From NCBI GenBank assembly GCA_020160805.1, contig JAIUPO010000007.1:84835-148834 (forward strand): DNA of 64,000 nt, in the 5' to 3' direction. Both the position numbers and the translations under genes were made by a program. Of this stretch, positions 1 to 64,000 are shown in pieces. The notes under the pieces are model-generated. The model saw nothing but the letters and a program-made list of their open reading frames with translations, did no database searches and had not been told where the DNA came from. Position 1 is the stretch's first letter; each line of letters opens with the position of its first letter. Source of the DNA: Actinomycetota bacterium (GTDB lineage Bacteria > Actinomycetota > Actinomycetes > Actinomycetales > Dermatophilaceae).

Positions 1-1
1 G

Positions 2-571
2 CCGCCATCGGCCCGCCGACTGCTCGCTCCGCAGGCTCCCGACGCGGCGCAGGTGCTCGCCGGGATCGGCCTCGCGTCAATGGCGGTCGCGACTTTCGCC
101 GTGCGCTCCGACGAGTGGCCTCCCGCGCCCGGCTCCGGCTTCCTGGTGCCGCCCATCGAGGGGCGCGCGATCAAGGCCAGCACCTTCAGCAGCGCGAAGT
201 GGGGGTGGCTCGCCGAGACCATCCCTGACCTCACCTATGTGCGCGCATCGCTGGGGCGCGCGGGCGAGGAGGCAATGCTGCAGCGATCGGATCGCGAGTT
301 GCTCGATTTCGCGTGGCGTGATCTCGGCGACATCCTCGGTGCCGATCGGCCGAGCCCGATCGCCACTCATGTCCAGCGGTGGGGCGGCGGACTGCCACAG
401 TATGCCGTGGGTCATCTCGACCGAATCGCCCTGCTGCGCAAAGAGATCGACGAGCTGCCCGGGGTGGAGGTGGCGGGGGCGGCATACGAAGGGGTCGGCA
501 TACCGGCGGTGATCGGGGGTGCGCGGGCCGCTGCCCAGCGCCTGCTCGGCGCCGCCGGGTTGAGAGACTGA
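2..571 (+). CDS. hemY: Coproporphyrinogen III oxidase (HemY/CgoX), C-terminal part
   Basis: FAD-dependent oxidase of the coproporphyrin-dependent heme route, converting coproporphyrinogen III to coproporphyrin III. The frame is open at the left edge of the window, so only about the last 189 residues are present. They contain the typical C-terminal half of the family: the GSGFLVP stretch, [10 protein letters not shown], a [10 protein letters not shown] segment, the [11 protein letters not shown] motif and the closing [17 protein letters not shown], which in this family contacts the FAD. It lies 4 bp upstream of chdC, the next enzyme of the same pathway, so the two are almost certainly cotranscribed. 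The N-terminal Rossmann motif is outside the window. Confidence 0.9.
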
Positions 572-575
572 GGCC

Positions 576-1292
576 ATGACCCGCCCCATCCCCGCCAAAC
601 CCACGCCCGCGCGCATGCGCGAGATCAACGACACGATCCGCTACGCGATGTGGTCGGTCTTTGCGGTCGAGACCCGGCTCGGGGAGGCCGACCGGGCGGC
701 ATACGCCGGCGAGGTGGAGGCGCTCTTCGCGGCCCTCGCAGCGGAGGGGGTGGTCGTGCGGGGGTTGTATGACGTGGCTGGTCTGCGCGCGGACGCTGAC
801 CTGATGATCTGGTGGCACGCGGAGCAGCCGGAGGCGCTGCAGTCGGCGTACCAGCGCTTCCTGCGCACCGGGCTCGGCGGGCACCTGAAGCCGGTGTGGT
901 CGCAGCTGGCGCTGCACCGGCCGGCGGAGTTCAACAAGAGCCACATTCCGGCCTTCCTCGCCGACGAGAACGCCCGGGCGTATGTCTGTGTGTATCCGTT
1001 TGTGCGGTCCTACGACTGGTATGTCCTCGAGGACGGCGAGCGGCGCGACATGTTGCGCGAGCACGGGCAGATGGCCCGCGACTATCCCGACGTGCGCGCC
1101 AACACGATCTCGTCCTTCGCGCTCGGTGATTACGAGTGGATCCTGGCCTTCGAGGCCGATGATTTGCACCGCATCGTGGACCTGATGCGCGAGCTTCGCG
1201 CCTCCCGCGCCCGCCTCCACGTGCGCGAGGAAACCCCCTTCTACACCGGCCCCCGCGTCACCCTCCCCGCCGCCGTGGCCGCGCTGCGGTAG
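576..1292 (+). CDS. chdC: Coproheme decarboxylase (ChdC/HemQ)
   Basis: Catalyses the last step of the actinobacterial heme pathway, the H2O2-dependent oxidative decarboxylation of coproheme to heme b. The 238-residue length is normal for the chlorite-dismutase-like family. His123, Tyr140 (in [11 protein letters not shown]) and His163 (in [10 protein letters not shown]) have the same mutual spacing (17 and 23 residues) as the distal His, catalytic Tyr and proximal heme-ligand His of the Corynebacterium diphtheriae enzyme. SFALGDYEW is the usual C-terminal family signature. The ATG follows a GAGG-containing leader and lies 4 bp after hemY. The start and the function are both secure. Confidence 0.95.
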
Positions 1293-1294
1293 TT

Positions 1295-1372
1295 GCTCAT
1301 TTCTCTCCGGATGCCGAAAGTGTGCGGTTGACCCTGCTTTAGAGCAGGGGGTAAGCGCAGACTTCCCGGGGT
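1295..1372 (-). repeat. Dispersed palindromic repeat, copy A
   Basis: One of three related intergenic repeats (the others are at 2433-2506 and 13483-13557). Read on the minus strand it matches them closely: AAGTCTGCGCTT, then a CCCTGCT...AGCAGGG hairpin, then CGCACACTTTCGGCATCCGGAG and an A-rich tail. It starts 3 bp after the chdC stop codon, so it may act as a 3'-end hairpin. Confidence 0.8.
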
Positions 1373-1483
1373 TAGGCGAAGCGGCACCTGCGTTTTCCCC
1401 AGGCCCTGGCGCCCAAAACGGGCTGATCCACAGATTCTCGAACCCCCTGGTGATGGGGCGGCCCGGGCGTAAGGCTCGATGGC

Positions 1484-2404
1484 ATGACCTTAGAACTCGG
1501 AATCCATCTCTTCGACTTGGCCAGCGCTCAGCACGGCATGCTCACTACAGAGCAAGCCAATCGAGCCGGATATCGATCCTGGGCACTTGCCCGCTTGGTG
1601 AAGGCGGGAGAATTGCTCCATCCGGGTCGGGGTCTGTATGCCGTCCCCGCCCTCGTCGACCAAAGCGAACTCGCCTGGCATCGGCATTTGAGCGTCGGCG
1701 GGCTCTTGATGTATCCCGATGCTCTGCTGACGGGTGCATCCGCCCTGATCGCTCGGGACCTGCCCGTTTGGGGTGCCGATCTGACGCGACCGCGGCTGGT
1801 GCGGCCTCCCGACCGGTCCCGAGGCGCGACATTTCTGTGGATTCGTCCCAATCGCGGTTCGCAGCCGTCGGTCAGCGAGCTGGGGCCGACAGTCGGGGTC
1901 GCCGATGCGCTCGTCCAGCATGCGCTCGATTCGGGTGTCCAGGCTGGCGTGGTCAGCGCGGACGCGGCAATGCACGCCCGCCTCGTGACACCCGAGGACA
2001 TCCAGATCGCTGCCCAGCGGGTGGAGAATTGGCCGAAGGGCAGCCGAGCAAGATCTATGACCGGGTTGATGGATGGTCGGCGCGAGTCTGTGGCCGAATC
2101 CCTTGCGGGCGTGAGCTTCGCCATGCACGGGATCCTGGTCGAGCCTCAGGTCCGGCTTTACGACCCGAACGGCACTTTCGTCGCCAGAGTCGACTTCCTC
2201 ATTCCGGGCACGAATGTCGTCGTGGAAGTCGACGGTCGGCTCAAGTACGCGTCTGGGGATCCTCAGGTCCTCTGGGATGAGAAGCGTCGCGAAGACGCGA
2301 TCCGTCGACTTGGCTATGTCGTGGTCCGCCTTACGTGGGCTGACTTGATGAACCCTGAGGTCTTGATCGCCAAGGTGCGCGCGGCATTGGCCATGGCCGC
2401 CTAG
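1484..2404 (+). CDS. AbiEi-type antitoxin-domain / DUF559 nuclease-like protein
   Basis: A 306-residue two-part protein. Residues about 8-60 resemble the winged-helix domain of AbiEi-type antitoxins (LTTEQANRAGYRSWALARLV, then GRGLYAVP). The C-terminal 100 residues resemble the DUF559/Vsr-like PD-(D/E)xK nuclease fold: VDFLIPG, then VVVEVDGR as a degenerate E-x-K strand, an EKRREDAIRRLGY helix and VVRLTWADL. This architecture is common and uncharacterised in actinobacteria and is usually an orphan without the AbiEii toxin; none is seen here. It is AT-richer than its neighbours and lies between inverted copies A and B of a repeat, which hints at acquisition. No good ribosome-binding site precedes the ATG. 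Function unknown. Confidence 0.75.
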   Translation: MTLELGIHLFDLASAQHGMLTTEQANRAGYRSWALARLVKAGELLHPGRGLYAVPALVDQSELAWHRHLSVGGLLMYPDALLTGASALIARDLPVWGADLTRPRLVRPPDRSRGATFLWIRPNRGSQPSVSELGPTVGVADALVQHALDSGVQAGVVSADAAMHARLVTPEDIQIAAQRVENWPKGSRARSMTGLMDGRRESVAESLAGVSFAMHGILVEPQVRLYDPNGTFVARVDFLIPGTNVVVEVDGRLKYASGDPQVLWDEKRREDAIRRLGYVVVRLTWADLMNPEVLIAKVRAALAMAA

Positions 2405-2432
2405 CCCACGACTACTCCGCCGCTGCTTACCA

Positions 2433-2938: not shown

Positions 2939-3518
2939 TCGATTCTGGCATGCAATCGATGTCCCGCCCCCCGGCGAGATCGCCGCACTCGACCAGCAGC
3001 AACTCCGGCGTGGCCGCGAGATATGCCCGCCCGCCCGCGTCGCCTGTCAGGGTCGCCCGCATCGCGGCGAAGTGGTCGCGACCAAGGAGCACCGGGTGCC
3101 CGACGTGCCCGTTGTATGCCGCCCGCGCCAGCGCCGCTGTCCCGGCACCTGCGCGCCCCGCGACCCGGGCGACGACCTCGGGTCCGACATCCGGCAGGTC
3201 GACCAGGTGCAGCATGACCTGGTCAACCTCCAGGTCAAGCGCGAGATCGAGCGCCGCTCGCGTCGAGGCGCTCATCCCTTCGGACCAGTCCGGCACGGGT
3301 ACGGCGATGACCCCGTCCGGCGGCAGCACCTTGGCAGCACCCATGCACACCGCCACCGCATCGCAGCCCCCGACAGCCAGCGCCGCGATCGCCCCGCGCA
3401 ACCAGGCGCCATCGGCCGCCAAGATCTTCGGGCCACCGAAGCGCCGTCCAGCGCCCGCGGCCAGCACGACGCCGAGGCGCCGGGGCGATGGCGGGGGAGC
3501 GGGCGGCATACGCCCCAT
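2904..3518 (-). CDS. MobA-like NTP transferase (MocA-type)
   Basis: Nucleotidyltransferase of the MobA/MocA fold, which in related proteins transfers CMP or GMP to molybdopterin. The signature LGVVLAAGAGRRFGGPK opens the domain, and LVDLPDVGPEVV carries the metal-binding aspartate region. GHPVLLG is the usual late motif. I start it at the ATG at 3518 (about 204 residues) because the longer frame would run into the divergent gene starting at 3580; an ATG at 3509 is equally possible. No molybdenum-cofactor or molybdoenzyme genes are nearby, so the substrate cannot be inferred from context. Confidence 0.8.
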   Translation of the reverse strand: MGRMPPAPPPSPRRLGVVLAAGAGRRFGGPKILAADGAWLRGAIAALAVGGCDAVAVCMGAAKVLPPDGVIAVPVPDWSEGMSASTRAALDLALDLEVDQVMLHLVDLPDVGPEVVARVAGRAGAGTAALARAAYNGHVGHPVLLGRDHFAAMRATLTGDAGGRAYLAATPELLLVECGDLAGGRDIDCMPESSDGHLAQRPGV

Positions 3519-3579: not shown

Positions 3580-4746
3580 GTGAGCAGGAAGGCAGTGGCC
3601 GTCAAGGCGGCGATCGGGGCTGCGGCGGTGGGCAGTTCGGCGGCCGCCGGCACCGCAGCGGCCTCCTTGACCGCGGCGGCCTACTTCGCGCGTCGGGTGC
3701 TCACCCCGGACCGCCGGCGCCCCGATGACGTCGAACTGCTCGAGACCGGCGTCGACGATGTGGTCTTCGCCGAGAGCCCGGAGGCGGACGTGCCGGGCAG
3801 GTATGGCGTGTGGCTGGAAGGCGGACGCGGGCACCTGCGCGTGGGCGAGATCCTCGAGCACGACACCACCGCCAAGACCGTCCGGCGGCGGATCATCTCG
3901 CGCGATTACGGCATCTTGCGGCCCGGCCCTGCGCGCTGGAATGGCTATTACTACTACGCCCCACCGGAGATCAGCCTCGGCCTCGCCACTCAACATGTCC
4001 ACGTCCTGAGCGATCTCGGGCCGATGCCCGCGTGGGTCGTGCCGGGTATGGGCGATGGCTCTCAGTGGGCGATCCTCGTCCACGGGCGCGGGGCCCGCCG
4101 CGAGGAAACCGTCCGAGCCATCTCACCGGTGCTGGCCGCCCGGCATACCGTCCTGGTCCCCAGCTATCGCAATGACGAAGGCGCACCGAGCGGACCGGAC
4201 GGTCGATACAACCTTGGCCTGTCGGAGTGGCGTGATATCGAGGCGGCCATCGCGTATGCCGTGGAGCGCGGCGCCACCGAGGTCGCGCTGATCGGCTGGT
4301 CGATGGGCGGGGCCATCGTGCTGCAATTGCTCGCCCGATCGCCGCTCGCGTCCGTCGTGAGCAAGGTGATTCTCGACGGCCCTGTCGTGGACTGGAATGA
4401 CGTCCTGGCCCACCACGCCCGCGCCCACGGGGTGCCGGAGCGGGTCGGGGGCCTGAGTCGCACGATCATGGGAAAGCGCTGGTCGCGGCGTCTGGTCGGG
4501 GTGCACGAGTCCGTCGATGTCGCCAAGACCAATTGGGTGGCCCGGGCGGCCGAGTTGCACCACCCGATCCTGCTCATCCACAGCCACGATGACGAATTCG
4601 TCCCGGTTGGACCGTCCGAGGCACTCGCCGAGGCGCGGCCCGATCTGGTCACCTTCGTGCCGTGGGAGCAGGCGCGGCATTGCAAGGAGTGGAACACCGA
4701 TCCGCTGCGGTGGGAGTCCGAGGTCGCGGCCTACCTGCGGCGCTGA
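3580..4746 (+). CDS. Membrane-anchored alpha/beta hydrolase
   Basis: A 388-residue alpha/beta hydrolase starting at GTG. Residues about 6-36 form an alanine-rich hydrophobic segment that would anchor the protein, leaving the catalytic domain probably outside the membrane. The triad is visible: nucleophile Ser241 in GWSMGGA, an acidic residue at Asp337/338 in HSHDDEFVP and His367 in ARHCKEWN. HGRGARREE (about 168-176) is the oxyanion-hole loop. A YYYY run near residue 123 is unusual. The family is broad (esterases, peptidases, lipases) and the substrate is unknown. Confidence 0.85.
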   Translation: MSRKAVAVKAAIGAAAVGSSAAAGTAAASLTAAAYFARRVLTPDRRRPDDVELLETGVDDVVFAESPEADVPGRYGVWLEGGRGHLRVGEILEHDTTAKTVRRRIISRDYGILRPGPARWNGYYYYAPPEISLGLATQHVHVLSDLGPMPAWVVPGMGDGSQWAILVHGRGARREETVRAISPVLAARHTVLVPSYRNDEGAPSGPDGRYNLGLSEWRDIEAAIAYAVERGATEVALIGWSMGGAIVLQLLARSPLASVVSKVILDGPVVDWNDVLAHHARAHGVPERVGGLSRTIMGKRWSRRLVGVHESVDVAKTNWVARAAELHHPILLIHSHDDEFVPVGPSEALAEARPDLVTFVPWEQARHCKEWNTDPLRWESEVAAYLRR

Positions 4747-5522: not shown

Positions 5523-6587
5523 ATGGCCAAGGACAAAAAGAGTAAGAAGAAGGACAAGAAGAGTAAGAAGGCGGCCAAGGAACTCGAGGTCATCGCCAAG
5601 GACCTGGCCCAGCGCAAGGCTGTGCGCAACGCCAAGAAGGCGAAGGACGCGAAGATCAAGGTCGCTGCGGAGAAGGTCGCCGAGGTCGTGGCGCCCAAGG
5701 CGTCCGACGCACCCAATCCGTTCGACCTCGCCGACGCCCTCCGCGCTGGCCCCGGCTTCGTGCTCACCGATCTCGACACCTCATCGACACCCGGCTTTGA
5801 CGGCAGCCGCGAGGAGGCCGAGGCCCTCATGGGCCCGCTGGCCGAGCAGGTCGCCGACCTGCAGGAGCGGTTGTATGCCGAGGCGAAAGCCGGCGGGAAG
5901 CGCTCGGTTCTCTTGGTCATCCAGGGCATGGACACCTCCGGCAAGGGCGGCATCATGCGCCATGTCGTCGGCGCGGCCGACCCGCAGGGCGTGGACATCA
6001 CCGCCTTCAAGGCCCCGACGAAGGAAGAGCGGGCCCACCCCTTCCTCTGGCGGATCCGCAATGCCCTTCCCGAGCCGGGCATCATCGGCGTCTTCGATCG
6101 CAGTCACTACGAGGATGTGCTCATCGTCCGTGTCCATGACCTGGTGCCGCGGACGCAGTGGGCTCGCCGCTATGCGCAGATCAATGCCTTCGAAAAGCAG
6201 GTCGTGGCGTCCGGGACGACCGTGATCAAGGTGATGCTCGACATCTCCCGGGACGAGCAGAAGGCCCGGCTCGCCGAGCGACTCGCCAATCCGGAGAAGC
6301 ATTGGAAGTTCAACCCGGGCGATCTCGACGAGCGCGCCTACTGGGATGACTACATGCAGGCCTATCAGGCTGCCATCGACAAGTGCTCCACCGACGAGGC
6401 GCCCTGGTATGTCGTGCCGGCGGACCGCAAATGGTATGCCCGCCTGGCCGTGATGAACCTGCTGCTCAACGCGCTGCAGGGCCTTGACCCGCAGTGGCCG
6501 GCCGCCGAATTCGACGTCGCCGAACAGCAGCGTCGGCTCGAGGAGGACGTCCAGAAGTCGGCCGACGAGGACTCAACGTCTAGCTGA
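5523..6587 (+). CDS. ppk2: Polyphosphate kinase 2 family protein
   Basis: Transfers phosphate between inorganic polyphosphate and a nucleotide. The P-loop is at residues 135-143 (GMDTSGKGG) and the Walker B-like motif VFDRSHYED follows with Asp192. RKWYARLAVMNLL near the C-terminus is also family-typical. The N-terminal 60 residues are lysine/alanine-rich; they begin with a KDKKSKK heptapeptide encoded by a 21-bp tandem duplication (5529-5549 and 5550-5570) and may bind polyphosphate. The stop codon overlaps the convergent aidB-like gene by 8 bp. Whether it makes ATP/GTP or consumes it cannot be told from sequence alone. Confidence 0.92.
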   Translation: MAKDKKSKKKDKKSKKAAKELEVIAKDLAQRKAVRNAKKAKDAKIKVAAEKVAEVVAPKASDAPNPFDLADALRAGPGFVLTDLDTSSTPGFDGSREEAEALMGPLAEQVADLQERLYAEAKAGGKRSVLLVIQGMDTSGKGGIMRHVVGAADPQGVDITAFKAPTKEERAHPFLWRIRNALPEPGIIGVFDRSHYEDVLIVRVHDLVPRTQWARRYAQINAFEKQVVASGTTVIKVMLDISRDEQKARLAERLANPEKHWKFNPGDLDERAYWDDYMQAYQAAIDKCSTDEAPWYVVPADRKWYARLAVMNLLLNALQGLDPQWPAAEFDVAEQQRRLEEDVQKSADEDSTSS

Positions 6588-8229
6588 GGTCCACGCCTGC
6601 GGGCGTGCGACTGAGCACAGCCGGGGCGGCGGAGCGCACCACATCAGCGGGCAAGGTCCCAAAGGTGGCGCCCCGCTCTCCGGCGATCCGCGTCGCGACG
6701 AAGGCCTGCGCCACGGGCGCCTCGGCATACCTCACCATCAGGCTCGCCTGCAGGGTGAGGGCGAGGTCCTCGACGCCTCGGCGGGCGATCAGTGGGGCAT
6801 CGACATCAAGGGCCCCGCCGGCCATCGGCTCGATCCGGTCAATGGCGGAGTCCAGTCGGGCATCGAAACCGCGCGCCAGCGTGGCCTCCTTGGCCAGCGC
6901 CGCCAGCGAGGCCGGCTCGCGGGCGATGGCGCGCAGCACGTCGAGGGCGTTGACATTGCCCGAGCCCTCCCAGATCGAGTTCAGCGGAGCCTCGCGGAGC
7001 AGGCGCGCCATGCCGTTCTCCTCGACATAGCCCAGCCCGCCCAGGCATTCCAGCGCCTCGGCCACCATCGGCGTCGCGCGCTTGCACACCCAGAACTTGC
7101 CCAGCGCCACCGCCAACCGCGCGAAATCGTCCTCGCCTTCATCGACGGCGTGGGCCAGGCGCATCGCGAGCAGGGTGGCGGCCTCGGACTCCAGCGCGAG
7201 ATCGGTCAGGACGTTGCGCATCAGGGGCGCATCGAGCAGGCGCGTCCCGAAGGCGCTGCGGTATGCCGTGTGGTGCACCGCCCGCACGAGCGCCGCGCGC
7301 ATCGTCGCCGCGGATCCGAGGACGCAGTCGAGCCGGGTCGCGGAGACCATCTCGATGATCGTCGCAATCCCACGGCCGGGCTCGCCGAGCGGCGTCGCCC
7401 AGGTGTCCTCGAACTCGACCTCGGAGGAGGCATTGGCGCGATTTCCCAGCTTGTCCTTCAGCCGCTGGATCGCAAAGGGATTGCGCGTGCCGTCGGGCAG
7501 GACGCGGGGGAGCAGGAAGCAGGTCAGCCCGGCGGGGGCCTGCGCGAGCACGAGGAAGCCATCGCTCATCGGCGCTGAACAGAACCATTTATGACCCCGC
7601 AGCCGGTGGCTTTGCTCTCCAAGCGGGCCGCTGGCGTCCGGCGTCGCGGTGGTGGTGTTGGCGCGGACATCGGAGCCGCCTTGCTTCTCGGTCATGCCCA
7701 TGCCGACGAGGGCACCGGGCTTGGCATCGATCGACGTCAGCTGCGGGTCGTAGGCACGGGACGCCAGCTTGGGGAGCCAGGTCCCGCGAGCCTGTGGGTC
7801 GCGGGCGAGGACGGACGCGGCGGCATACGTCATGGACACCGGGCACAGGTGCCCCGCCTCGACCTGGCCCCAGACGTAGAAGCCGGCCGCCCGCGCCAGG
7901 TGCGCGCCGCTGCCCGCCGGCCGAGTCCACGGCTCGGCCGTGAGTCCGTGCCCCACGGCCACCGTCATGAGCTGGTGGTATGCCGGGTGGTAGTCGACCT
8001 CGTCTACCCGCCGGCCCCGCGCGTCGTGGCTGCGCAGCACCGGGGGAGCGGTGTCGGCCTGAACGCCCCAGGTCAGGGCCTGCTCCGCGCCGGCCTGCGC
8101 TCCGAGTTGATGGACATCCGCGGTCGGGGCACCCCACCGGGCGGTGGCCTCCATCAGGGTTGAGTCGGTGCGGAAGAGGTCGTCCCCGCCATAGACCGGG
8201 CTTTGGTTGAACACCTCATGGGTCGGCAT
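6580..8229 (-). CDS. aidB: AidB-like acyl-CoA dehydrogenase
   Basis: A 549-residue flavoprotein of the AidB branch of acyl-CoA dehydrogenases, close to the 541 residues of E. coli AidB, a protein induced in the adaptive response to alkylation. It starts with the family-typical THEVFNQSP. GMGMTEKQGGSDVRANT is the AidB version of the FAD/substrate motif. Glu421 in SIWEGSGN corresponds to the acyl-CoA dehydrogenase catalytic glutamate. I place the start at the ATG at 8229 because the open frame continues upstream only through a divergent gene. The ogt and tag genes about 7.5 kb away support a role in alkylation tolerance, though isovaleryl-CoA dehydrogenase activity is also reported in this family. 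Confidence 0.88.
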   Translation of the reverse strand: MPTHEVFNQSPVYGGDDLFRTDSTLMEATARWGAPTADVHQLGAQAGAEQALTWGVQADTAPPVLRSHDARGRRVDEVDYHPAYHQLMTVAVGHGLTAEPWTRPAGSGAHLARAAGFYVWGQVEAGHLCPVSMTYAAASVLARDPQARGTWLPKLASRAYDPQLTSIDAKPGALVGMGMTEKQGGSDVRANTTTATPDASGPLGEQSHRLRGHKWFCSAPMSDGFLVLAQAPAGLTCFLLPRVLPDGTRNPFAIQRLKDKLGNRANASSEVEFEDTWATPLGEPGRGIATIIEMVSATRLDCVLGSAATMRAALVRAVHHTAYRSAFGTRLLDAPLMRNVLTDLALESEAATLLAMRLAHAVDEGEDDFARLAVALGKFWVCKRATPMVAEALECLGGLGYVEENGMARLLREAPLNSIWEGSGNVNALDVLRAIAREPASLAALAKEATLARGFDARLDSAIDRIEPMAGGALDVDAPLIARRGVEDLALTLQASLMVRYAEAPVAQAFVATRIAGERGATFGTLPADVVRSAAPAVLSRTPAGVDLS

Positions 8230-8320: not shown

Positions 8321-8848
8321 ATGAGCATCCGCCGATATGCCGCCGCCGTTCTGGCCGCCGCCCTGGTCCCCGCTCTGGCCGGCTGTGGGAATTTCATCAC
8401 CACGGAGATCGTCGGCATGGTCGGGGTGACGGCCGATGCCGAGGGTCGCCCGGTGGTCATCGTTGCGCCCTGTGGCGCCGCGATCGACCGGGTGCATGTC
8501 GTCGAACTGCTCGATCGCTCGAAAGTCAATGAGCAGGAGACCAATCCGGTGCTGCTCGAACTGGCCCGATCTTCGGCGAATACCGGTTCGACCACGCTCG
8601 ACCTGGCTGCGCCCGGCGAGTGGACCCCGCAGGGCGCCTTCGATCCGGCCGCCCAGGCCGCGGTCGTCATCGGCGCCGCCTCCAGCACCAAAGACCAAAG
8701 TGCCACTCCAGTCCAGGTGACGACGGCGCAGTATGCCGATCTCGACGCCTCCCACGTCCGGGTGCGGGAGGACGAGGTGTGGACGCGCGTGGACTTTGAT
8801 GCTCTGGCGTGCCGTCGGGATGCGTGGCCGACGGTGACCAGATCGTGA
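8321..8848 (+). CDS. Putative lipoprotein
   Basis: A 175-residue protein with a clear lipoprotein signal: MSIRR, a hydrophobic alanine-rich segment and the lipobox ALAGC with Cys22 as the modified residue. The start at 8321 is preceded by GAGGAG at a good distance; longer versions of the frame would overlap the aidB-like gene and lack a signal peptide. The mature part has no motif I recognise. It is predicted to be anchored to the outer face of the membrane. Function unknown. Confidence 0.75.
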   Translation: MSIRRYAAAVLAAALVPALAGCGNFITTEIVGMVGVTADAEGRPVVIVAPCGAAIDRVHVVELLDRSKVNEQETNPVLLELARSSANTGSTTLDLAAPGEWTPQGAFDPAAQAAVVIGAASSTKDQSATPVQVTTAQYADLDASHVRVREDEVWTRVDFDALACRRDAWPTVTRS

Positions 8849-8916: not shown

Positions 8917-10041
8917 GTGGTGGAGGCGAAAGGTGCGCTCAAGCGTGCCCTGGGGGACATTCCGGGTGGGCTGTGGCTCGCTCGGGTGATCGCCGAGACG
9001 GTTCGAATCTGTCTGCGCTATCGCGTTACCGGCCTCGCCTCGGAGGCCGGTTTCTTCGCACTGCTGAGTTTTCCGCCGCTGATCCTCGGGCTCTTCGGTG
9101 GCGTCGGCTATATCGGCCGGCGCCTCGGCGAGGTGACGGTCGACTCCTTCACCCAGCAAATCAGTGAGTATGCCGGCCGCTTCGTCACCCCCGAAGTCAT
9201 CGACGATCTGCTCTTGCCCACGATCTCCGACACCTTCTCCAGCGGCCGCAGCGATCTGATCTCGCTCGGCTTCCTGCTCTCGCTGTGGTCGGGCTCGCGT
9301 GCCTTGAATGTCTTCATCGACACCATCGCGATCATGTATGGCCAGTCCGGCGTGCGCGGGATCGTGCGCACCCGCGCGCTGTCGTTCACGATGTATATCG
9401 TCACGCTGGTCGTGGGGGTCGTCATGATCCCGCTGGTGTTGATCGGCCCGACGCTGCTGGGCCGGATCCTGCCGACCCGACTCGATTTCCTTGTCGGTGC
9501 CTATTGGCCGGTCGTGACCGTGCTCGTCCTCGCGTCCGTGACCACGCTATATCACATCGCCAATCCCAAGCGGACCCCGTGGTTGCGCGATCTGCCGGGC
9601 GCGATCCTGACGCTGGTGCTGTGGGCGATCGCGTCATATGCCGTGCGTGGCACCATTGCCGCCTCGCTCGGCGGGACCTCGATCTATGGACCGTTGTCGA
9701 CGCCGATCGTGCTGCTGATCTGGCTGTATTTCATCGCCATCGCGGTGCTCATCGGGGCCGCCTTCAATGCCGCGACGCTGCGCATCAATCCGGCCCAAAA
9801 GGCCGTCGCGGTGCGTCGCGAACGACCCAACCGGCCACTCACGCCGTTCCCCGAAGGACCGGACACCATGGAGCGTCTGACCCGATTTGGGTATGCCCGC
9901 TTGCATGGGTTAAGGTCTCTGAGCGCACGAACGAGGGCCACCTCGGACGTCGCAAGTGCGGATGTAGCTCAGTTGGTAGAGCGCAACCTTGCCAAGGTTG
10001 AGGTCGCCGGTTCGAGGCCGGTCATCCGCTCGGAGGGTTAA
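8917..10041 (+). CDS. YihY/BrkB family membrane protein, frame runs through tRNA-Gly
   Basis: An inner-membrane protein of the YihY/BrkB family (once called RNase BN, now regarded as a membrane protein of unclear function). Family motifs visible are ASEAGFFALLSFPPLILGLF near residue 42, LWSGSRALNVFIDTI and, late, LIWLYFIAIAVLIGAAFNA. About six hydrophobic segments are present. The start is GTG (8917 or 8920). After the family domain ends near residue 300 the frame has no stop until 10039-10041, so its last 28 residues would be encoded by tRNA-Gly. The reading frame is as stated; whether the tail is made is uncertain. Confidence 0.85.
   Translation: MVEAKGALKRALGDIPGGLWLARVIAETVRICLRYRVTGLASEAGFFALLSFPPLILGLFGGVGYIGRRLGEVTVDSFTQQISEYAGRFVTPEVIDDLLLPTISDTFSSGRSDLISLGFLLSLWSGSRALNVFIDTIAIMYGQSGVRGIVRTRALSFTMYIVTLVVGVVMIPLVLIGPTLLGRILPTRLDFLVGAYWPVVTVLVLASVTTLYHIANPKRTPWLRDLPGAILTLVLWAIASYAVRGTIAASLGGTSIYGPLSTPIVLLIWLYFIAIAVLIGAAFNAATLRINPAQKAVAVRRERPNRPLTPFPEGPDTMERLTRFGYARLHGLRSLSARTRATSDVASADVAQLVERNLAKVEVAGSRPVIRSEG
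9958..10030 (+). tRNA. tRNA-Gly (GCC)
   Basis: A 73-nt cloverleaf. The acceptor GCGGATG pairs with CATCCGC, the D arm is GCTCAGTTGGTAGAGC, the anticodon arm CAACCTTGCCAAGGTTG shows GCC, and the T arm is GCCGGTTCGAGGCCGG. The discriminator is T and CCA is not encoded. It lies wholly inside the open reading frame of the BrkB-family gene. Confidence 0.97.
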
Positions 10042-12618: not shown

Positions 12619-13050
12619 TCAGCCAGGTGAGTTACCTTGACGCAATGACGTGAGCATCAGAACGGCCAAGAGGGCCGCGACGGGCAGCACCCGAGAGGAC
12701 CGTTTGGCGATCCGCCAACTCGCAGGGTCGATGACGTTGGCCTCAACGACAGCCCGCGGGCGCACCCAGAGGGTCACGGCATACGCGAGGCAGGCGCCCA
12801 CCAGAAGCAGGAGGACGGCGCGAGGGATCAAGCCCGCGTGGCCAGCGGGCCCGGCATACGCGAAGCCCGCGACGGCGCAGCAGGCGACCGTATGCGCGGC
12901 GACCACGAGGTAGGTCGTGGCGCGCGACGCCAGGGCGACCAGAGCGGCGGCGCCAAGCGCCAGGATGCAGCCGGTGGCCACCGTGGACAGTTCTTCGACG
13001 GTGCCGCGGCGGGTCAGACCAATCGTGGTGGTGGCGCACCAGTCGTCCAA
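12619..13050 (-). CDS. Hypothetical membrane protein
   Basis: About 143 residues from a TTG start at 13050, or 120 from a GTG at 12981; no ATG is suitably placed because the upstream frame enters the divergent ankyrin gene. Four hydrophobic segments are visible, with a basic loop (WVRPRAVVEANVIDPASWR) between the third and the fourth. No conserved motif recognised. The membrane topology is clear but the start is not. Confidence 0.5.
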   Translation of the reverse strand: MDDWCATTTIGLTRRGTVEELSTVATGCILALGAAALVALASRATTYLVVAAHTVACCAVAGFAYAGPAGHAGLIPRAVLLLLVGACLAYAVTLWVRPRAVVEANVIDPASWRIAKRSSRVLPVAALLAVLMLTSLRQGNSPG

Positions 13051-18642: not shown

Positions 18643-18730
18643 ACCCACCATCATGGCCGAGTCGGCCTCGCCTCCCTCGGCGGCTGGCCCGGACACGAGA
18701 GACTAGCGACGGCCCACGAGGAGGTATGCC

Positions 18731-31985: not shown

Positions 31986-32098
31986 ACCGGCTCCTGTGCC
32001 TTAGGGCGAACATGACAAGGGCGCCGCACCCGGCGCCACTTCGCGGACCACAATAGCTTCACGTCACCCGGCCGGGCGCGCTCAATAGGATCGGTGTC

Positions 32099-37307: not shown

Positions 37308-37383
37308 GCCCGCTCGCGCGCGGGACGTAGACTGCGGACGGCCGCCCACGCGGCATACCCCCTGAACTGGCAAGCGAGGCACC

Positions 37384-55789: not shown

Positions 55790-55800
55790 AGGCCGCGCCG

Positions 55801-56691
55801 GTGAGCCAGTCCCTCCTGCCCACGCAGGCCTATGACGCGCAGGCCGTGCCGGGCGGGGTCATCACGCGCCGAGCTCCGCAGAACTCTTTCTCGGTGCACC
55901 TCGACAATTTCGAGGGACCCTTCGATCTGCTGCTCGGCCTGATCGCCAAACACAAACTCGATATCACCGAGATCGCGCTGGCCAAGGTCACCGATGAGTT
56001 CCTCGCGCACCTGCGCACGATGCGCGAGGGCGGCGACTGGGATCTCGATCAGGCCAGCGAGTTCCTGCTGGTCGCGGCGACCTTGCTGGATCTGAAGGCG
56101 GCCCGGCTGCTGCCGCAATTGGATCCCGAGGACGAGGAGGATCTCGCGCTCATCGAGGCTCGGGACCTGCTTTTCGCCCGGCTGCTGCAATATCGCGCTT
56201 TCAAGCACATCGCCCACGACTTCGAGGAGCGTCTCGCGGTCAACCGCGCCATGGTGGCCCGTCGGGCCGGCATCGACCCGCGGTATGCCGCCCTGCTGCC
56301 CGAACTCGTCCTTGGCATCACCCCCGAACAATTGGCGATGATCGCGGCCCGGGCCCTGACCCCCAAGGCCGCGCCGACGGTCGGACTCGACCACTTGCAC
56401 GCCCCAGCCGTCAGCGTCCAAGAACAGGCGGCCATCATCGGCACGCGGCTGCGACGCGCCCAGGTGGCGACCTTCCGCACCCTGGTCGCCGATGCCGAGT
56501 CGACCCTGGTCATCGTGGCGCGCTTCCTCGCGGTGCTGGAGCTTTATCGCGAGGCGAGCATCGCCTTCGAGCAAGCAGAAGCCTTGGGGGAGTTGACGAT
56601 TCGCTGGACAGGCAGCGATGAGGGCGAGATCTCCGTGAGCGACGAATTCGACGACATCCCCGCCGAACCGGCGAGGAAGGACCAGTCATGA
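55801..56691 (+). CDS. scpA: Segregation and condensation protein A
   Basis: Kleisin subunit of the SMC condensin, 296 residues, GTG start. FSVHLDNFEGPFDLLLGLI is the N-terminal SMC-binding motif, ASEFLLVAATLLDLKAARLL follows, and the C-terminal winged helix contains RFLAVLELYREASIAFEQ. Overlaps scpB by 4 bp. Confidence 0.95.
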   Translation: MSQSLLPTQAYDAQAVPGGVITRRAPQNSFSVHLDNFEGPFDLLLGLIAKHKLDITEIALAKVTDEFLAHLRTMREGGDWDLDQASEFLLVAATLLDLKAARLLPQLDPEDEEDLALIEARDLLFARLLQYRAFKHIAHDFEERLAVNRAMVARRAGIDPRYAALLPELVLGITPEQLAMIAARALTPKAAPTVGLDHLHAPAVSVQEQAAIIGTRLRRAQVATFRTLVADAESTLVIVARFLAVLELYREASIAFEQAEALGELTIRWTGSDEGEISVSDEFDDIPAEPARKDQS

Positions 56692-57302
56692 CGCAGGACC
56701 CGGTGCCTCCGGAGGAGACCGACGACGGACCGCTGGCTTTGGACATCGACGCCATGCCCGGCGGTGCGAAGGCGGCCATCGAGGCCATCCTCATGGTCAC
56801 CGACGAGCCAGTGACCCCGGTCGCCCTCGCGACCGCCCTGGAGGTGACGCTCGAGCAGGTGCTGGGCCACCTCGCCACCTTGGAGCAGGAGTATGCGGAC
56901 CGCGGCTTCGCCCTGCGCGAGGTCGCCGGCGGCTGGCGGATCTACAGCCGCCCAGAGTATGCCGCGGCCGTCGAGCGCTTCATCCTCGAGGGCGCGACCG
57001 CCAAGCTGACGCAGGCCTCCCTGGAGACCTTGGCCGTCGTGGCCTACCGCCAACCGATTTCCCGGGGACGGATCGGAGCGGTACGTGGGGTCAATGTCGA
57101 TGGCGTCGTGCGCACTCTGCTTGCCCGCGGCCTGATCGAAGAGGTTGGGTCGGAGCCGGAGTCCGGTGCCTTGCTCTATGGCACCACGGGATACTTCCTC
57201 GAACGACTCGGCCTGCGTGATCTGGCCGAGCTGCCCGCATTGGCCCCCTATCTGCCCGAGGTGGATGTCTTGGACGAACTCGCCGAACAGGGACGCGCAT
57301 GA
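56688..57302 (+). CDS. scpB: Segregation and condensation protein B
   Basis: A 204-residue double winged-helix partner of ScpA. AAIEAILMVTDEPVTPVALA and ETLAVVAYRQPISRGRIGAV with RGVNVDGVVRTLL are family signatures. Acidic short ends. ATGA overlaps with scpA and rluB. Confidence 0.95.
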   Translation: MTQDPVPPEETDDGPLALDIDAMPGGAKAAIEAILMVTDEPVTPVALATALEVTLEQVLGHLATLEQEYADRGFALREVAGGWRIYSRPEYAAAVERFILEGATAKLTQASLETLAVVAYRQPISRGRIGAVRGVNVDGVVRTLLARGLIEEVGSEPESGALLYGTTGYFLERLGLRDLAELPALAPYLPEVDVLDELAEQGRA

Positions 57303-58258
57303 CGCCCCCGAAGCCCCGCGGCGGCGGTAGCAGCAGTGGCGGCGGTGGTCGCGGCGGCAGCAGCGGCGCCGGTGGCCGCGGTGCGCGCGGTGGCCGGTCC
57401 GGAGGGCCGAGCGGCGGGACGGGCGGCATACCCGGGCGGCGGCGGGGACCACAGCATGCCGGGACGACCAAGAAGAGCCAGCCGACCCGCATACCCAAGG
57501 AGCCGGCACGGCCGCAGATCGATGTGCACGATCCGGAGGGCATCCGACTGCAAAAGCTGCTCGCCGCGTGCGGGATCGGCTCGCGCCGAGCCTGCGAGCA
57601 GCTGATCAGCGAGGGTCGGGTCGAGGTCGACGGGCAGATCGTCACGGAGCTCGGCGTGCGGGTCGATCCGTCGCGTCAGCTGATCCATGTCGACGGAGTG
57701 CGGGTCCAGACCGACCCGGAGAAGGTCTATCTCGCCTTCAACAAGCCACTCGGCGTCGTCACGACGATGCAGGACGATCTCGGCCGGCCGTGCGTCGGGG
57801 ACTATGTCGCGGGCCGCCGCGAGCGACTCTTCCACGTCGGTCGGCTCGATGCGGACACCGAAGGCCTGCTGCTGCTCACCAATGACGGTGAGCTCGCCAA
57901 CCGGCTGGCCCACCCGTCCTATGGCGTGCTGAAGACCTATGTCGCGCAAATTCCCGGCCCGGTGCCGCGCGATCTCGGCAAGCAATTGCGCGCCGGGGTG
58001 GAGTTGGACGACGGGCCCGCAAGCGTCGACAGCTTCAAGCTCGTGGATTCCTTCCCCGGCAAGGCGGTCGTCGAGGTGGTGCTGCACGAGGGTCGCAATC
58101 ACATCGTGCGGCGCCTGCTCGAGGCCGTTGGCCACCCGGTCGTCGCGCTGGCGCGCACCGAGTTCGGTCCGGTGCGGCTCGGGGCGACCAAGGCCGGCAA
58201 GTTCCGCGCCCTCAGTGCCCAGGAGATCAGCGCGCTGTATGACGCGGTGGGTCTGTGA
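57299..58258 (+). CDS. rluB: 23S rRNA pseudouridine synthase (RluB family)
   Basis: A 319-residue synthase modifying 23S rRNA near the peptidyl-transferase region. An S4 domain (RLQKLLAACGIGSRRACEQL) precedes the catalytic domain with Asp in VGRLDADTEGLLLLTNDGEL. The first 60 residues are a Gly/Ser/Arg-rich low-complexity tail, probably an RNA-binding disordered extension common in actinobacterial homologues. GTGA overlap with tyrA. Confidence 0.93.
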   Translation: MTPPKPRGGGSSSGGGGRGGSSGAGGRGARGGRSGGPSGGTGGIPGRRRGPQHAGTTKKSQPTRIPKEPARPQIDVHDPEGIRLQKLLAACGIGSRRACEQLISEGRVEVDGQIVTELGVRVDPSRQLIHVDGVRVQTDPEKVYLAFNKPLGVVTTMQDDLGRPCVGDYVAGRRERLFHVGRLDADTEGLLLLTNDGELANRLAHPSYGVLKTYVAQIPGPVPRDLGKQLRAGVELDDGPASVDSFKLVDSFPGKAVVEVVLHEGRNHIVRRLLEAVGHPVVALARTEFGPVRLGATKAGKFRALSAQEISALYDAVGL

Positions 58259-60127: not shown

Positions 60128-60801
60128 GCAGCCCCGACTCGTGGCGGGCCGGCTGGGCCCGGCCGGTCGGTGCGGCGATCTTCCGCACGCTGTATGCCGG
60201 TCGCTCCGTCGGCGCCGCCCATGTGCCCCGTTCGGGCCCGGTGATCCTCGCGGCCAATCACACCGGCTTCCTCGACGGCGCCGTGATCGTCGGGCTCGCG
60301 CCGCGGCCGGTGCACTTCCTCGTCTATGACAAGTCCTTTGAGCGCTGGGTTGGGTCGATCCTGCGGGCCTCGGGCCAGATTCCGTTGGCGATGGATCGTG
60401 GCGCCCGGGCCGGGCTGCATGCCGGGCTCGACGTCCTGTCTCGTGGGGGAGTGCTGGGCATCTTCCCGGAGGGGGCGCGCGGGCGAGGGGACCTCGCCGA
60501 TGCCGAGCGAGGAGTGGCCTGGTTGGCCATCCAGTCGGGGGCGGACGTCATACCCACGGCTTGTCTGGGCACGCGGGCCACGGGTGCGCTCGCGGACTCG
60601 GTGCCGGCGCCGCGCTCGAAGCTGGTCGTGGACTTCGGGGAAGCGTTGGCGTTCGACATCCCACAGGGCGTGCCGGGGCGCCGTCGCGTCCAACTGGTCG
60701 CGGACCAGATCCGCGAGGGGCTCGCGGCGCACGTTGCGGCGGCATCCCGGGAGCACGGCATACCCCTGCCTGAGGATGTGCCGCCCGACCTGTGGGACTG
60801 A
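60124..60801 (+). CDS. plsC: 1-acyl-sn-glycerol-3-phosphate acyltransferase family protein
   Basis: A 225-residue acyltransferase; motif I is [12 protein letters not shown] (H-x4-D) and motif [10 protein letters not shown]. It starts with GTG overlapping the cmk stop. The cmk-plsC-der order is widespread in actinobacteria. It acts at the membrane in phospholipid synthesis. Confidence 0.9.
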
Positions 60802-60847: not shown

Positions 60848-62314
60848 ATGACGAGCACCCCGCCGCCCACCGGCCCGGACGAGCAGGCCCTCGATGCCGC
60901 CCTGCGGGTCGGCCTGGACGACTTCGACCTGACCGAAGAGGACCGCGCCCTCCTCGACGGTGACGGCCTGCCGGGCGAGGACGGTCCGACCACCGAACTG
61001 CTGCCCGTGGTCGCCATCGTCGGGCGGCCCAATGTCGGCAAGTCCACCCTCGTCAATCGCATCCTGCGCCGCCGCGAGGCGGTTGTCGAGGACGTGCCGG
61101 GCGTGACCCGGGACCGGGTCTCGTATGAAGCCGAATGGGCGGGCCGCCGTTTCACCATCGTCGACACAGGCGGGTGGAGCATCGACGCCACCGGCATCCA
61201 CCTGCGGGTCGCCGAGCAAGCCGAGGTCGCTGTCGATTTGGCGGATGTCGTCATGTTTGTCGTGGACGCGAAGGTCGGGGCGACGGACGACGACGAGGCG
61301 GTCGTGCGGATGCTGCGTCGCTCCGGCAAGCCGGTCGTTCTCGTCGCCAACAAGGTCGATGATGACCGCTTCGAGGCCGACGCGATGGCCCTGTGGAATC
61401 TGGGGTTGGGGGAGCCGTATGCCGTTTCCGCCCTCCACGGCCGCGGCTCCGGTGATGTGCTGGACCGGGTGGTCGAGTTGCTGCCCGAGCGCTCCCAGGT
61501 CCCGGCCTCGGGTGCCGAGGGGGGCCCCCGCCGGGTGGCCCTGATCGGGCGCCCGAATGTCGGCAAGTCCTCGCTGCTGAACAAACTGGCCGGCGCCGAG
61601 CGGGTTGTCGTCGACGACCTGGCGGGCACCACCCGCGACCCGGTCGACGAAGTCATCGAGATCGGCGGCGTGCCGTGGCGCTTCGTCGACACCGCGGGCA
61701 TCCGGCGCCGCGTCCACCAGACGCAGGGCGCGGACTTCTACGCCTCGCTGCGCACGCAGGGCGCCTTGGAGAAGGCCGAAATCGCCGTCGTCCTGATCGA
61801 CGCGGGCACCTCCATCACTGAGCAGGACATTCGCGTCGTCCAGCAGGTCATCGACGCCGGGCGGGCGCTGGTCATCGCCTACAACAAGTGGGACACCCTC
61901 GATGAGGAGCGCCGCTACTACTTGGAGCGGGAGATTGAGCGCGAGCTGGTGCAGGTGCCGTGGGCGCCGCGGGTGAACATCTCGGCCCGGACCGGGCGGC
62001 ATACGGACAAGCTCGTCCCGGCTCTCGAGGGCGCGCTGGAGTCGTGGGACCGGCGCATCCCGACCGCCCGTCTCAACGCCTTCCTCGGCGAGGTCGTCGC
62101 CGCCCACCCCCACCCCGTGCGCGGCGGCAAGCAACCACGGATCCTGTTCGGCACCCAGGCCGGCACCCGCCCGCCCCGCTTCGTGCTCTTCGCCTCGGGC
62201 TTCCTGGAGGCCGGCTACCGCCGCTTCCTGGAGCGGCGGCTGCGCGAGGAGTTCGGCTTCGAGGGCACCCCGATCGAGGTCTCGGTGCGTGTGCGGGAGA
62301 AGCGGAAGCGCTGA
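60848..62314 (+). CDS. der: Ribosome biogenesis GTPase Der (EngA)
   Basis: A tandem-GTPase of 488 residues for 50S subunit assembly. Two G1 loops ([13 protein letters not shown] and [13 protein letters not shown]), DTGG and DTAG G3 motifs, NKVDD and NKWD G4 motifs, and a C-terminal KH-like domain ending in basic residues. A 50-residue acidic N-terminal extension precedes the first domain. ATG at 60848 has TGGAGG upstream. Confidence 0.96.
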
Positions 62315-62318
62315 GGCG

Positions 62319-62950
62319 TCACCCGGACACCGCGGCTGCAGCCAAGGTGACCAAGGCACTCGCTCCGGTCACGCCGAGCAGTCCGGCCAGGTCGGTTCGG
62401 TGCCGCACGCCATACACGGGCGCGACCAGCGCCGCGGCGAGACCCGGGACCACGAAGTGCCCGCCGAGGGCGTTCGTGGCCCACGTGACGCCGACCCCGA
62501 CCGCGGTCAGCAGGCCCGCGGGGTGCCGCGTGGTCGGCCGACGGACCATCGTGGAGGCGAGGGTGCCCGCGAGGACGGCGACGCCGGCGTACCAGATCGC
62601 GTGACCGGCCAGTTCGTCCCACAGATGGGCGGTCGCGGACGGCTTGGCGTTGCCGATCGAGTGGCGCTCAGGTGGATTCCGTGGCCTTGGGTATAGAGCA
62701 GCGCTCCGATCCCGAGGCTGATCCAGTGTGCCGTCGACGCCCGCGCCGCGCGCATCGTCGCGGCGGCCAGGGCGAGCACGACGTAGGGCAGGAGCAGATC
62801 CAGCCAGTCGACCCAAGTGGTCGCGCGCCAGCGCTACGTCCCCGTCGGCAGGAGCCCGAGATGGTGCAGCAGCGCGTATGCCGCGCCGGTCCCCAGGAGC
62901 AGTCGCGGATAGGTGGGTTCCACCTCGGCGTTGGCCTCCTCCTGGTTCAT
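62319..62950 (-). pseudogene. Decayed polytopic membrane protein gene
   Basis: The gene starts at ATG 62950 (NQEEANAEVEPTYPRLLLG) and reads a plausible membrane protein, but an in-frame TAG lies at 62834-62836 and, further on, the frame shifts near 62672: GALLYTQGHGIHLSA is in one frame and HSIGNAKPSATAHLWDELAG continues in the next. A single missing base explains the shift. The end, with several hydrophobic segments, is convergent with der. Two independent lesions argue for a true pseudogene. Family function unknown. Confidence 0.8.
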
Positions 62951-63053: not shown

Positions 63054-63127
<74 letters not shown>

Positions 63128-63132
63128 CGTAA

Positions 63133-63167
63133 AAGCCCAGGTGAGAGCAGGTTTCTCGCCTGGGCTT
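63133..63167 (-). terminator. Hairpin between tRNA-Pro and integrase remnant
   Basis: A 14-bp stem with one wobble pair (63133-63146 with 63154-63167, arm AAGCCCAGGTGAGA) and a 7-nt loop. On the minus strand the stem is followed by TTTTACG, so it best serves as terminator for the integrase gene; on the plus strand it could also stop tRNA transcription. Confidence 0.65.
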
Positions 63168-63192
63168 CATCATGTCCCGTGGTCGCTTTTCG

Positions 63193-63296
63193 TGGTCCCC
63201 CTCTGGTCCCCCTGGAGTGGCGCCGGACGATCGCCTGTGGACAGCCGGACCGCCTCGGCCCGCTTCCCTGTGGATAAGGGGACCAAAAGGGGACCA
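63193..63296. repeat. Paired GGTCCCC repeats, candidate integrase arm sites
   Basis: TGGTCCCCCT occurs at 63193 and 63204; the inverse AGGGGACCA occurs at 63277 and 63288. Both pairs have an 11-bp period, one helical turn, and they face each other across 70 bp between tRNA-Pro and the integrase 3' end. This fits arm-type binding sites; the 63128-63335 gap contains no gene. Confidence 0.5.
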
Positions 63297-63335
63297 GAAC
63301 TCCTGCGCGGCCACTCGCACCGCCGCCGCCGCACA

Positions 63336-63601
63336 TCACAGTCCCCTGGCTGACGGGCCGCTGCACCGAGCCTGTTTGCGTTGTCCGGCGGCGGAAAGGA
63401 AGGCATTGGCCTGCTCGGCCGCCGAGGCGAGATGCCGGTCGTCGGGGTGAAGGTAGCCGCGGATGGTTTCCATCGAGGCGTGCCCAAGGATGTCTTGGAG
63501 CACATGCGGCGGGATGCCGGCGTCGGCCATCCAGGTCGCTCCGGTATGGCGCAGGCCGTGCCGGGTGAGGTCGGGCAGTCCGAGCCCTGCGACGACACTG
63601 T
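63336..63601 (-). pseudogene. Tyrosine integrase, C-terminal remnant
   Basis: The last 88 codons of a phage- or element-type tyrosine recombinase: LPDLTRHGLRHTGATWMADA (HxxR box), then VLQDILGHASMETIRGYLHP with His and the nucleophile Tyr. The N-terminal domain and the catalytic Arg are missing because an IS3-type end joins at 63602. The frame runs on, unbroken, into the IS sequence. Next to tRNA-Pro, this is the integrase end of a once-integrated element. Confidence 0.82.
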
Positions 63602-63868
63602 CTGAACCGCCCCGGGTTCGGTGGAGAGTCAGGCGTTCTTCCTCGACGGTCGTCGGGGAAGGGTTGTGGGCAGCGTAGTAGGTGTTCTCGTACTCGACGG
63701 GTGGGATGTCGCCGGTCCAGCCGTGGAGGCGTCGCTGGTTGTACCAGTCGACCCAGCGCAGGACTTCGAACTCGACGTGTCGAGGGTGCGCCACGGCCCG
63801 AGGCGGCGGATGACCTGGGTCTTGAAGAGCCGGTTGAGTGCCTCGGCGGCGGCATTGTCGTAGCTTTA
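63602..63868 (-). mobile_element. IS3-family element remnant (transposase C-terminus, frameshifted)
   Basis: Read on the minus strand: YDNAAAEALNRLFKTQVIRR and LGPWRTLD in one frame, then, after a missing base near 63778, VEFEVLRWVDWYNQRRLHGW and TGDIPPVEYE in the next. These are the final D,D,E-domain motifs of IS3 transposases (catalytic Glu in AAAEALNR). The element ends at 63602 with TGAACCGCCCCGGGTTCGGT, typical of an IS3 terminus. Its upstream part is cut off near 63868 by other DNA. Confidence 0.75.
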
Positions 63869-63921
63869 ACCGGCTAATCGCAGCGGACTTCTTTCCGGTT
63901 CGGCCCTTTTCGTTGTTTGCC

Positions 63922-64000
63922 TCACATGGCGGTCGGGTGTGTCGCGGTGTCGTCGATCAGGGCGGTGAGGCGGTGGATGAGTCGGAGGTGTCGTTCGGTC
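63922..64000 (-). CDS. Partial transposase-like C-terminus at window edge
   Basis: A minus-strand frame open at the right edge reads ERHLRLIHRLTALI, then DDTATHPTAM and a TGA at 63922-63924. It is likely the end of a transposase of another insertion sequence that interrupts the IS3 remnant; the stretch 63869-63921 would be its non-coding terminus. The family cannot be named from 25 residues. Confidence 0.4.
   Translation of the reverse strand, partial: TERHLRLIHRLTALIDDTATHPTAM

Follow-up and report, generated by a model that had tools for sequence, protein, structure and literature searches.

Known uptake-word systems use type IVa pili, and the uptake signal sequence (USS) of the Pasteurellaceae occurs at about one copy per kb. 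According to excerpts of the published work, on which our cited statements rely throughout, a requirement for an uptake word exists in Neisseria species and in Pasteurellaceae but nowhere else, and the dialects of the DNA uptake sequence (DUS) in the Neisseriaceae reach 2,245–3,603 copies (PMC3630211). Here we analysed positions 84835–148834 of contig C7 in the actinobacterial genome G000 (3.75 Mb), a stretch of 64,000 bases referred to as the window, and the octamer GTATGCCG/CGGCATAC that is scattered over it. The window's family is presumably that of Tetrasphaera, Janibacter, Knoellia and Intrasporangium, judging from four named loci and general taxonomic background, and Micrococcus luteus belongs to the same order. 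Transformation of M. luteus needs comEC and both tad clusters (PMC4322843). The octamer is established as a genome-wide, DNA-level, family-specific word with dialects, and it probably functions as a DUS-like DNA uptake sequence, which is the best explanation of the sequence patterns described below.

Results

In the window, GTATGCCG/CGGCATAC is present in 70 exact copies with a strand split of 40/30, compared with a mean of 1.76 and a maximum of 6 in 100 dinucleotide shuffles. Under an order-2 Markov model it is the top-ranked octamer of the window (70 against 2.5 expected). A preliminary description of this DNA had arrived by hand at about 80 heptamers and 70 octamers, with a heptamer strand split of about 45 versus 35 and no clear polarity; exact counting returned 80 copies of GTATGCC/GGCATAC, split 45/35, and 70 octamers. 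The whole genome holds 1,545 + 1,526 = 3,071 copies (0.82 per kb) against 207 + 163 = 370 for the reversed string used as a control. The massive over-representation is thus real and even larger than had been claimed, and the genome-wide density is close to the proposed one copy per 0.8–0.9 kb, like that of uptake words. In 400 kb taken from other contigs of this genome, GTATGCCG was again the top octamer, and its count was far from the Markov expectation (352 against 15.2).

A preference of translation for certain codon pairs or codon contexts, such as TAT before G, could also generate an excess of this kind, and the words GTATGACG, GTATGGCG and GTATGTCG are enriched too. Gene calls and all codon tests were obtained with our own scripts and not from curated annotation. 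Of the 70 window copies, 58 lie inside called genes and all six phases are represented. The main frames are xxG-TAT-GCC-G (22 copies) and xCG-GCA-TAC (20), in agreement with the earlier statement that the word encodes Tyr-Ala as TAT-GCC and Ala-Tyr as GCA-TAC. A 464-kb sample of the genome contains 422 copies, namely 345 in called genes, 69 in intergenic DNA and 8 straddling a boundary, at densities of 0.90 per kb in genes and 0.85 per kb between them. Synonymous shuffling of the genes in this sample left 45.5 copies (maximum 55 in 20 shuffles), 7.6-fold below the 345 observed, and a shuffle that held the amino acid and the next base left 48.0 (maximum 58 in 20). The excess is therefore reached by synonymous codon usage only to this small extent, and the TAT-before-G preference, suggested earlier as part of the signal, explains little of it. 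Observed numbers in the six phases were 143, 17, 23, 103, 27 and 32, against 31.3, 1.1, 3.7, 2.5, 4.6 and 2.2 after synonymous shuffling.

Smaller samples of other genomes were analysed in the same way. In-gene copies compared with synonymous shuffles were 105 against 7.2 in G010, 52 against 3.4 in G034 and 65 against 6.0 in G007. For GGATGCCG, a second dialect (GG) that differs from GTATGCCG (GT) at position 2 only, the numbers were 65 against 9.8 in G028. Some phases were empty in these samples where almost no copies were expected (two in G034, one in G028). Intergenic and in-gene densities per kb were 1.51 and 1.32 in G010, 0.75 and 0.64 in G034, 1.55 and 0.79 in G007, and 1.27 and 1.14 in G028.

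With the codon pair fixed, G is found on both flanks in 143 of 259 TAT-GCC pairs, against 4 of 70 TAC-GCC pairs; the corresponding values in wordless genomes are 5 of 30 and 70 of 308. GCA is chosen for Ala before TAC at 103 of 123 sites that follow CG, against 18 of 107 sites elsewhere. The word drags rare codons along and overrides codon preference: ATA codons lie inside it in 32 of 171 cases in the window's genome and in 47 of 87 cases in samples of five other word-bearing genomes, compared with 1 of 73 in wordless genomes. Because in the window's genome all six phases are enriched and the intergenic density is equal, and because the flanks of a fixed codon pair still select the word, the excess is not a codon effect. 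An origin in translation or codon context was rejected on the synonymous-shuffle and phase evidence; as the main cause it is refuted, and its probability is practically nil. The six phases, the equal intergenic density and the rare ATA codons support the earlier proposal that selection or biased repair acts on the DNA, rather than tRNA usage.

Words with one mismatch were counted in the window's genome for a characterization of the motif. Enrichment was strong at position 6 (83, 69 and 78 copies with A, G and T against 9, 17 and 10 expected), moderate for most letters at positions 1, 7 and 8, and little or absent at positions 3–5, which identifies TATG as the strict core. At position 2 only G was raised (103 against 60). 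Around the 70 window copies there was no strong flanking consensus, and at no flanking position was one base found in more than 43 of them.

A non-palindromic, strongly over-represented octamer could serve as a polar recombination or segregation word, such as Chi for RecBCD/AdnAB or the FtsK orienting polar sequence (KOPS) for FtsK. Polarity is required for KOPS and usual for Chi. Along 200 kb of one contig, however, there was no strand polarity (87/87; heterogeneity p 0.99 over 21 pieces), and none was seen relative to genes (183/162). The Chi/KOPS explanation was rejected on this ground and must be regarded as very improbable. On contig C1 the copies are spaced a little more evenly than expected by chance (variance/mean 0.66 for 2-kb bins, p 0.003), and in the window they are not clearly under-dispersed (variance/mean 0.87, p 0.32).

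In cyanobacteria, the highly iterated palindrome HIP1 is a frequent octamer that is replaced in some genomes by alternates with matching methyltransferases (PMC4390886). In analogy, a DNA methyltransferase together with biased mismatch repair or deamination might make and keep the word without any uptake. For this question, samples of six word-bearing genomes (969 kb) and eleven wordless genomes (1,039 kb) were compared. Word genomes are poor in the C-to-T precursor GTACGCCG (4.7 against 15.7 per 100 kb in wordless ones). In G123, a genome that has lost the word, 11 lost sites could be compared without gaps with words of its two sisters, G124 and G027, and 7 of these comparisons show GTACGCCG in G123. 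Both observations fit such a mechanism; at the lost sites GTACGCCG is also the GC-richer synonym, as expected once the driver has been removed. On the other hand, GTATGCCG reaches 90 copies per 100 kb in the word-bearing samples (2.2 in wordless ones), which exceeds not only the 15.7 precursors but also the sum of all 24 one-step neighbours (70.0) in wordless genomes. Recurrent deamination of one precursor therefore cannot supply the words, and C-to-T deamination as the sole source was rejected since the precursor is too scarce. Furthermore, 19 of the 24 one-step neighbours have a higher rather than a lower density in word genomes, and the precursor of the GG dialect, GGACGCCG, is hardly depleted (23.8 against 31.7 per 100 kb) and too scarce to yield 113 words per 100 kb. 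The octamer is not a palindrome, and phage TJE1 of Tetrasphaera jenkinsii (49 kb) carries 2 copies where 0.94 are expected. Of the 112 word-bearing genomes, 59 were tested for C5 methylases (PF00145) and 23 gave no match; in five of these 23 (G064, G093, G010, G194 and G201) PF01555 and PF02384 were unmatched as well, other methyltransferase families not having been searched. One of the five, G010, is the densest word genome among those over 95% complete. A HIP1-like origin is weakened by these data, and we consider it unlikely.

The distribution of the two words was determined in 186 genomes of the family, which were classed by cut-offs of our own. GTATGCCG is present at 0.14 per kb or more (394–4,724 copies), with no GG dialect, in 105 genomes, and both words occur together in two (G083 and G084). 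GGATGCCG at 0.70 per kb or more (0.70–1.25 per kb) and little GT is found in five (G018, G070, G028, G081 and G082). Ten genomes form a weak class (GT at 0.04–0.10 per kb), and 64 have neither word. Word-bearing genomes occur in 32 of 53 genera, and losses are evident within genera: G065 has 37 copies compared with 1,251–1,660 in four sisters, G143 has 50 compared with 394–1,901 in thirty sisters, and G123 has 19 compared with 3,681 and 1,062. Of 296 genomes of the class, 290 fall outside the family, and none of these lay above about 0.05 per kb (maximum 386 copies in 7.5 Mb). In a set of 22 outside-family genomes the densest, G054, had 0.06 per kb with a higher reversed control (184 against 167).

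Among named relatives, Tetrasphaera australiensis Ben110 (now Nostocoides australiense) is the nearest by RelA, at 83% identity. It carries the word at 0.72 per kb in 22 kb, and 4 of 8 word sites are shared with the window, against a background of 23%. The word was also found at named loci of Janibacter sp. HTCC2649 (0.81 per kb), Knoellia sp. Soil729 (0.63 per kb) and an Intrasporangium metagenome-assembled genome (MAG; 0.27 per kb). Of the other named loci, 76 in number, a short one from a Nocardioidaceae MAG contains 2 copies within 7.6 kb, and the rest have 0.09 per kb or less.

On a LeuS+ComEC tree (37 tips without the two weak genomes; G003, G010, G019 and G082 placed from ComEC alone), presence and absence of the word require at least nine parsimony changes (12.6 with shuffled labels), or ten losses if the word was gained once, and parsimony leaves the state at the root ambiguous. 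Since lineages on either side of the root spell the word with the same letters, it would more likely have arisen once and been lost repeatedly, or have spread by transfer, than have been gained several times. For the GG dialect the tree requires two changes, that is, two origins. These patterns also bear on the idea that the octamer is bound by an abundant protein that organises the nucleoid or segregates chromosomes and needs dense, unpolarised sites, which would fit the similar density in genes and gaps, the slight under-dispersion on one contig and the lack of polarity. Such proteins are usually conserved, whereas neither word is found in the 64 genomes mentioned above, sometimes within a single genus, and the letters of the word change twice. 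This explanation is accordingly improbable.

The dialect is mostly rebuilt at new sites and not mutated in place. None of 7 aligned GT words of G083 equals GGATGCCG in G081, and six read GTAC... or GTAG...; conversely, none of 14 aligned GG words of G081 equals GTATGCCG in G083, with three kept. Exchange of GT and GG at the same site was seen in one case (G028 versus G198). In 54 kb of the two-dialect genome G083, 28 GT words and 36 GG words follow one another in what looks like random order (29 switches against 31.2 expected, 32% of shuffles being as low), and no mosaic of imported blocks was seen in this stretch. Rebuilt and interspersed dialects would best be accounted for by a changed trans-acting specificity. 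A weak excess of GGATGCCG was noticed in G004 of genus g2 (34 against 10.0 in 99.5 kb; L121–L124 and L201), which the tree places as sister of g58, a GG genus, and which possibly shows a decaying dialect. In the wordless genome G013 (L167–L170), GGACGCCG/CGGCGTCC, one base away from GGATGCCG, occurs 53 times in 80 kb against 11.5 expected, which might reflect another dialect or normal codon usage.

Candidate genes for DNA uptake are widespread in the family. ComEC was detected in 180 of 186 genomes, the six misses being drafts of 58–95% completeness, and ComEA matched in 38 of 39 fetched comEC loci, the sole miss being a 3.6-kb contig. In the window's genome, comEA lies directly upstream of comEC (an HhH/SLBB ComEA and a Competence/lactamase-B ComEC). 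Its tad locus encodes T2SSF, T2SSE, TadE and TadE/G-like proteins, and a 71-aa Flp-like and a 153-aa pilin-like protein of this locus gave no Pfam match. T2SSF is present in 183 of 186 genomes. TadE-like minor pilins were found in G000, G066, G144 and G081, which carry a word, and in G065 and G143, which do not; their pattern had no match in the examined stretches of G028, G198 and G123. Comparison of ComEC, T2SSF, comEA and the tad loci between word-bearing and wordless genomes revealed no discriminating gene. ComEC and Tad genes would permit uptake and do not predict the word.

The 70 exact copies of GTATGCCG in the window were mapped individually. On the forward strand they lie at 400–407, 1636–1643, 3114–3121, 4254–4261, 5873–5880, 7261–7268, 7978–7985, 8731–8738, 9168–9175, 10793–10800, 10881–10888, 14903–14910, 16369–16376, 16688–16695, 17088–17095, 17625–17632, 18412–18419, 18724–18731, 21943–21950, 23384–23391, 24476–24483, 27334–27341, 30177–30184, 34355–34362, 34707–34714, 36266–36273, 42536–42543, 47180–47187, 48246–48253, 49544–49551, 50881–50888, 51122–51129, 52797–52804, 54516–54523, 54837–54844, 56283–56290, 56957–56964, 60192–60199, 61417–61424 and 62876–62883. 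Those on the reverse strand lie at 480–487, 496–503, 697–704, 2848–2855, 3504–3511, 4141–4148, 6723–6730, 7821–7828, 10422–10429, 10584–10591, 12777–12784, 12852–12859, 13236–13243, 19713–19720, 26542–26549, 29553–29560, 31980–31987, 34782–34789, 35546–35553, 35996–36003, 37351–37358, 39143–39150, 41630–41637, 45107–45114, 46479–46486, 49490–49497, 54013–54020, 57424–57431, 60756–60763 and 61997–62004. The single positions named as examples in the preliminary description were accurate to 1–2 bases (480, 697, 1636, 3114, 57424 and 61997). Its two ranges, 10741–10870 and 34681–34760, hold the copies at 10793 and 34707, and those at 10881 and 34782 fall just outside.

Words close to the octamer are under-represented across the window (AGCATA/TATGCT, 2 against 15.7 expected; TCGCA/TGCGA, 83 against 177). 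Near the window end, at 63336–63794, a fragment resembles, by eye from its translation, the C-terminus of an insertion sequence (IS) element integrase. Other over-represented words were encountered elsewhere. Contig C1 of G126 (L159–L162) carries 23 ACAAGTAG/CTACTTGT boxes in 64 kb, many of them paired 30 bp apart within repeated blocks, which looks like a dispersed or iterated element on this 64-kb contig and not like an uptake word. In loci of Sphaerimonospora and Planotetraspora (L066, L071 and L073), CAAGATCA/TGATCTTG has 13 copies against 0.3–0.4 expected and CATGATCA has 15 against 0.6 in 22 kb; these could be local repeats or further genome-wide words.

Discussion

The reading of the octamer as an uptake word implies the following mechanism. 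Cells made competent by ComEA/ComEC together with Flp/Tad pili would favour word-carrying fragments in binding and import, and recombination of the imported fragments would spread and maintain it wherever coding allows. The receptor that reads the word would be specific for its sequence and would most likely be ComEA or a minor pilin of the Tad type; its recognition would combine a strict TATG core with looser flanks and a nearly free position 6. A change in receptor specificity would make a dialect. The neighbour spectrum, the missing methyltransferases and the dialects speak for a trans-acting factor over deamination, but they do not prove uptake. There is about an even chance that the history runs as follows: an ancestral GTATGCCG, read by a Tad-pilus or ComEA receptor, was lost some ten times and twice independently rewritten to GGATGCCG, with thousands of sites rebuilt and some genomes now between dialects. 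The word would then be a self-recognition language for transformation in a Gram-positive family.

Several observations weigh against an uptake word. The uptake filament of the known systems is mostly lacking: PilM, a marker of type IVa pili, is present in 7 of 186 genomes and not in that of the window, where only Tad-type genes were detected, and type IVa pili were therefore rejected as the filament. Wordless genomes have ComEC, comEA and Tad genes just as word-bearing ones do, and G065, G143, G123, G004 and G013 are wordless despite T2SSF hits at two or more tad loci. On the supporting side, all eight genomes that are at least 95% complete and have no more than two T2SSF domains (G009, G058, G016, G072, G085, G111, G132 and G015) lack the word, which fits the Tad model because M. 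luteus transformation needs both tad clusters. This association, however, was noticed post hoc and covers five genera, which the tree groups into three lineages. A weak word excess (295 copies) is seen in G074, which is 94% complete and has two T2SSF domains. The GG dialect has no neighbour halo: the combined density of its 24 neighbours is 234.7 per 100 kb in three GG genomes against 234.5 in wordless ones. Inverted pairs are rare in the window's genome, with 11 of 401 neighbouring pairs within 60 bp, 5 of the 11 facing (+-). Shared word sites amount to 14 of 17 between G083 and G084 (64% for all octamers) and to 3 of 7 between G081 and G082 (background 55%). Conservation of word sites among close relatives is thus not clearly above background, and the numbers are too small to show maintenance at the level of sites. 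Finally, HIP1 also has alternates (PMC4390886), and dialects alone are therefore no proof of uptake.

DUS and USS are so far two isolated cases, both from Gram-negatives. If the uptake reading is correct, the octamer would add a third, independent case, in Gram-positives with Tad instead of type IVa pili, and such words would evolve repeatedly. The losses within genera and the two-dialect genomes would then make the origin and change of uptake words directly testable. Natural transformability and a barrier to genetic exchange would be predicted for the Tetrasphaera-type polyphosphate accumulators of wastewater plants (PMC9123174), and the word would provide a practical handle for their genetics. 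Among the matches listed in the open PMC literature, with octamer matches judged by title, there was no published description of such an octamer or of an uptake word in actinobacteria or this family. The phrase 'uptake sequence' occurs 0 times in PMC4322843 and PMC8467076.

Among the described systems, HIP1 resembles the word in being a frequent octamer that is low or replaced by alternates in some lineages (PMC4390886). HIP1 is, however, palindromic and tied to a methyltransferase, whereas the present word is not a palindrome, and in five genomes that bear it none of three methyltransferase families was matched. M. luteus, with its Flp/Tad-dependent transformation, is likewise an actinobacterium with comEA, comEC and tad genes; the excerpt of that study reports no uptake word (PMC4322843). 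The USS of the Pasteurellaceae has a similar density and two dialects with a common inner core (PMC12616744). It differs in consisting of a 9-mer core within a longer extended motif, while here no flanking position exceeds 43 of 70 for one base.

The Neisseriaceae DUS also shares features with the word: thousands of copies, dialects that are one or few bases apart and keep the same core, family members without a word, and single-base changes that are tolerated better outside the core than inside. In contrast to the present word, DUS has at least 10 bases, and the protein that binds it is ComP, a minor pilin of type IVa pili (PMC6370729). Here, an octamer with a putative receptor is found in Gram-positives with Tad genes, and inverted pairs are rare. 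Traits of DUS and USS that recur in this family are hundreds to thousands of copies above the expectation from composition or codons, a location in and between genes on both strands with no polarity, and clade-specific dialects sharing a core. The octamer is not classed as a member of DUS/USS because type IVa pili are mostly lacking, but it probably works like them.

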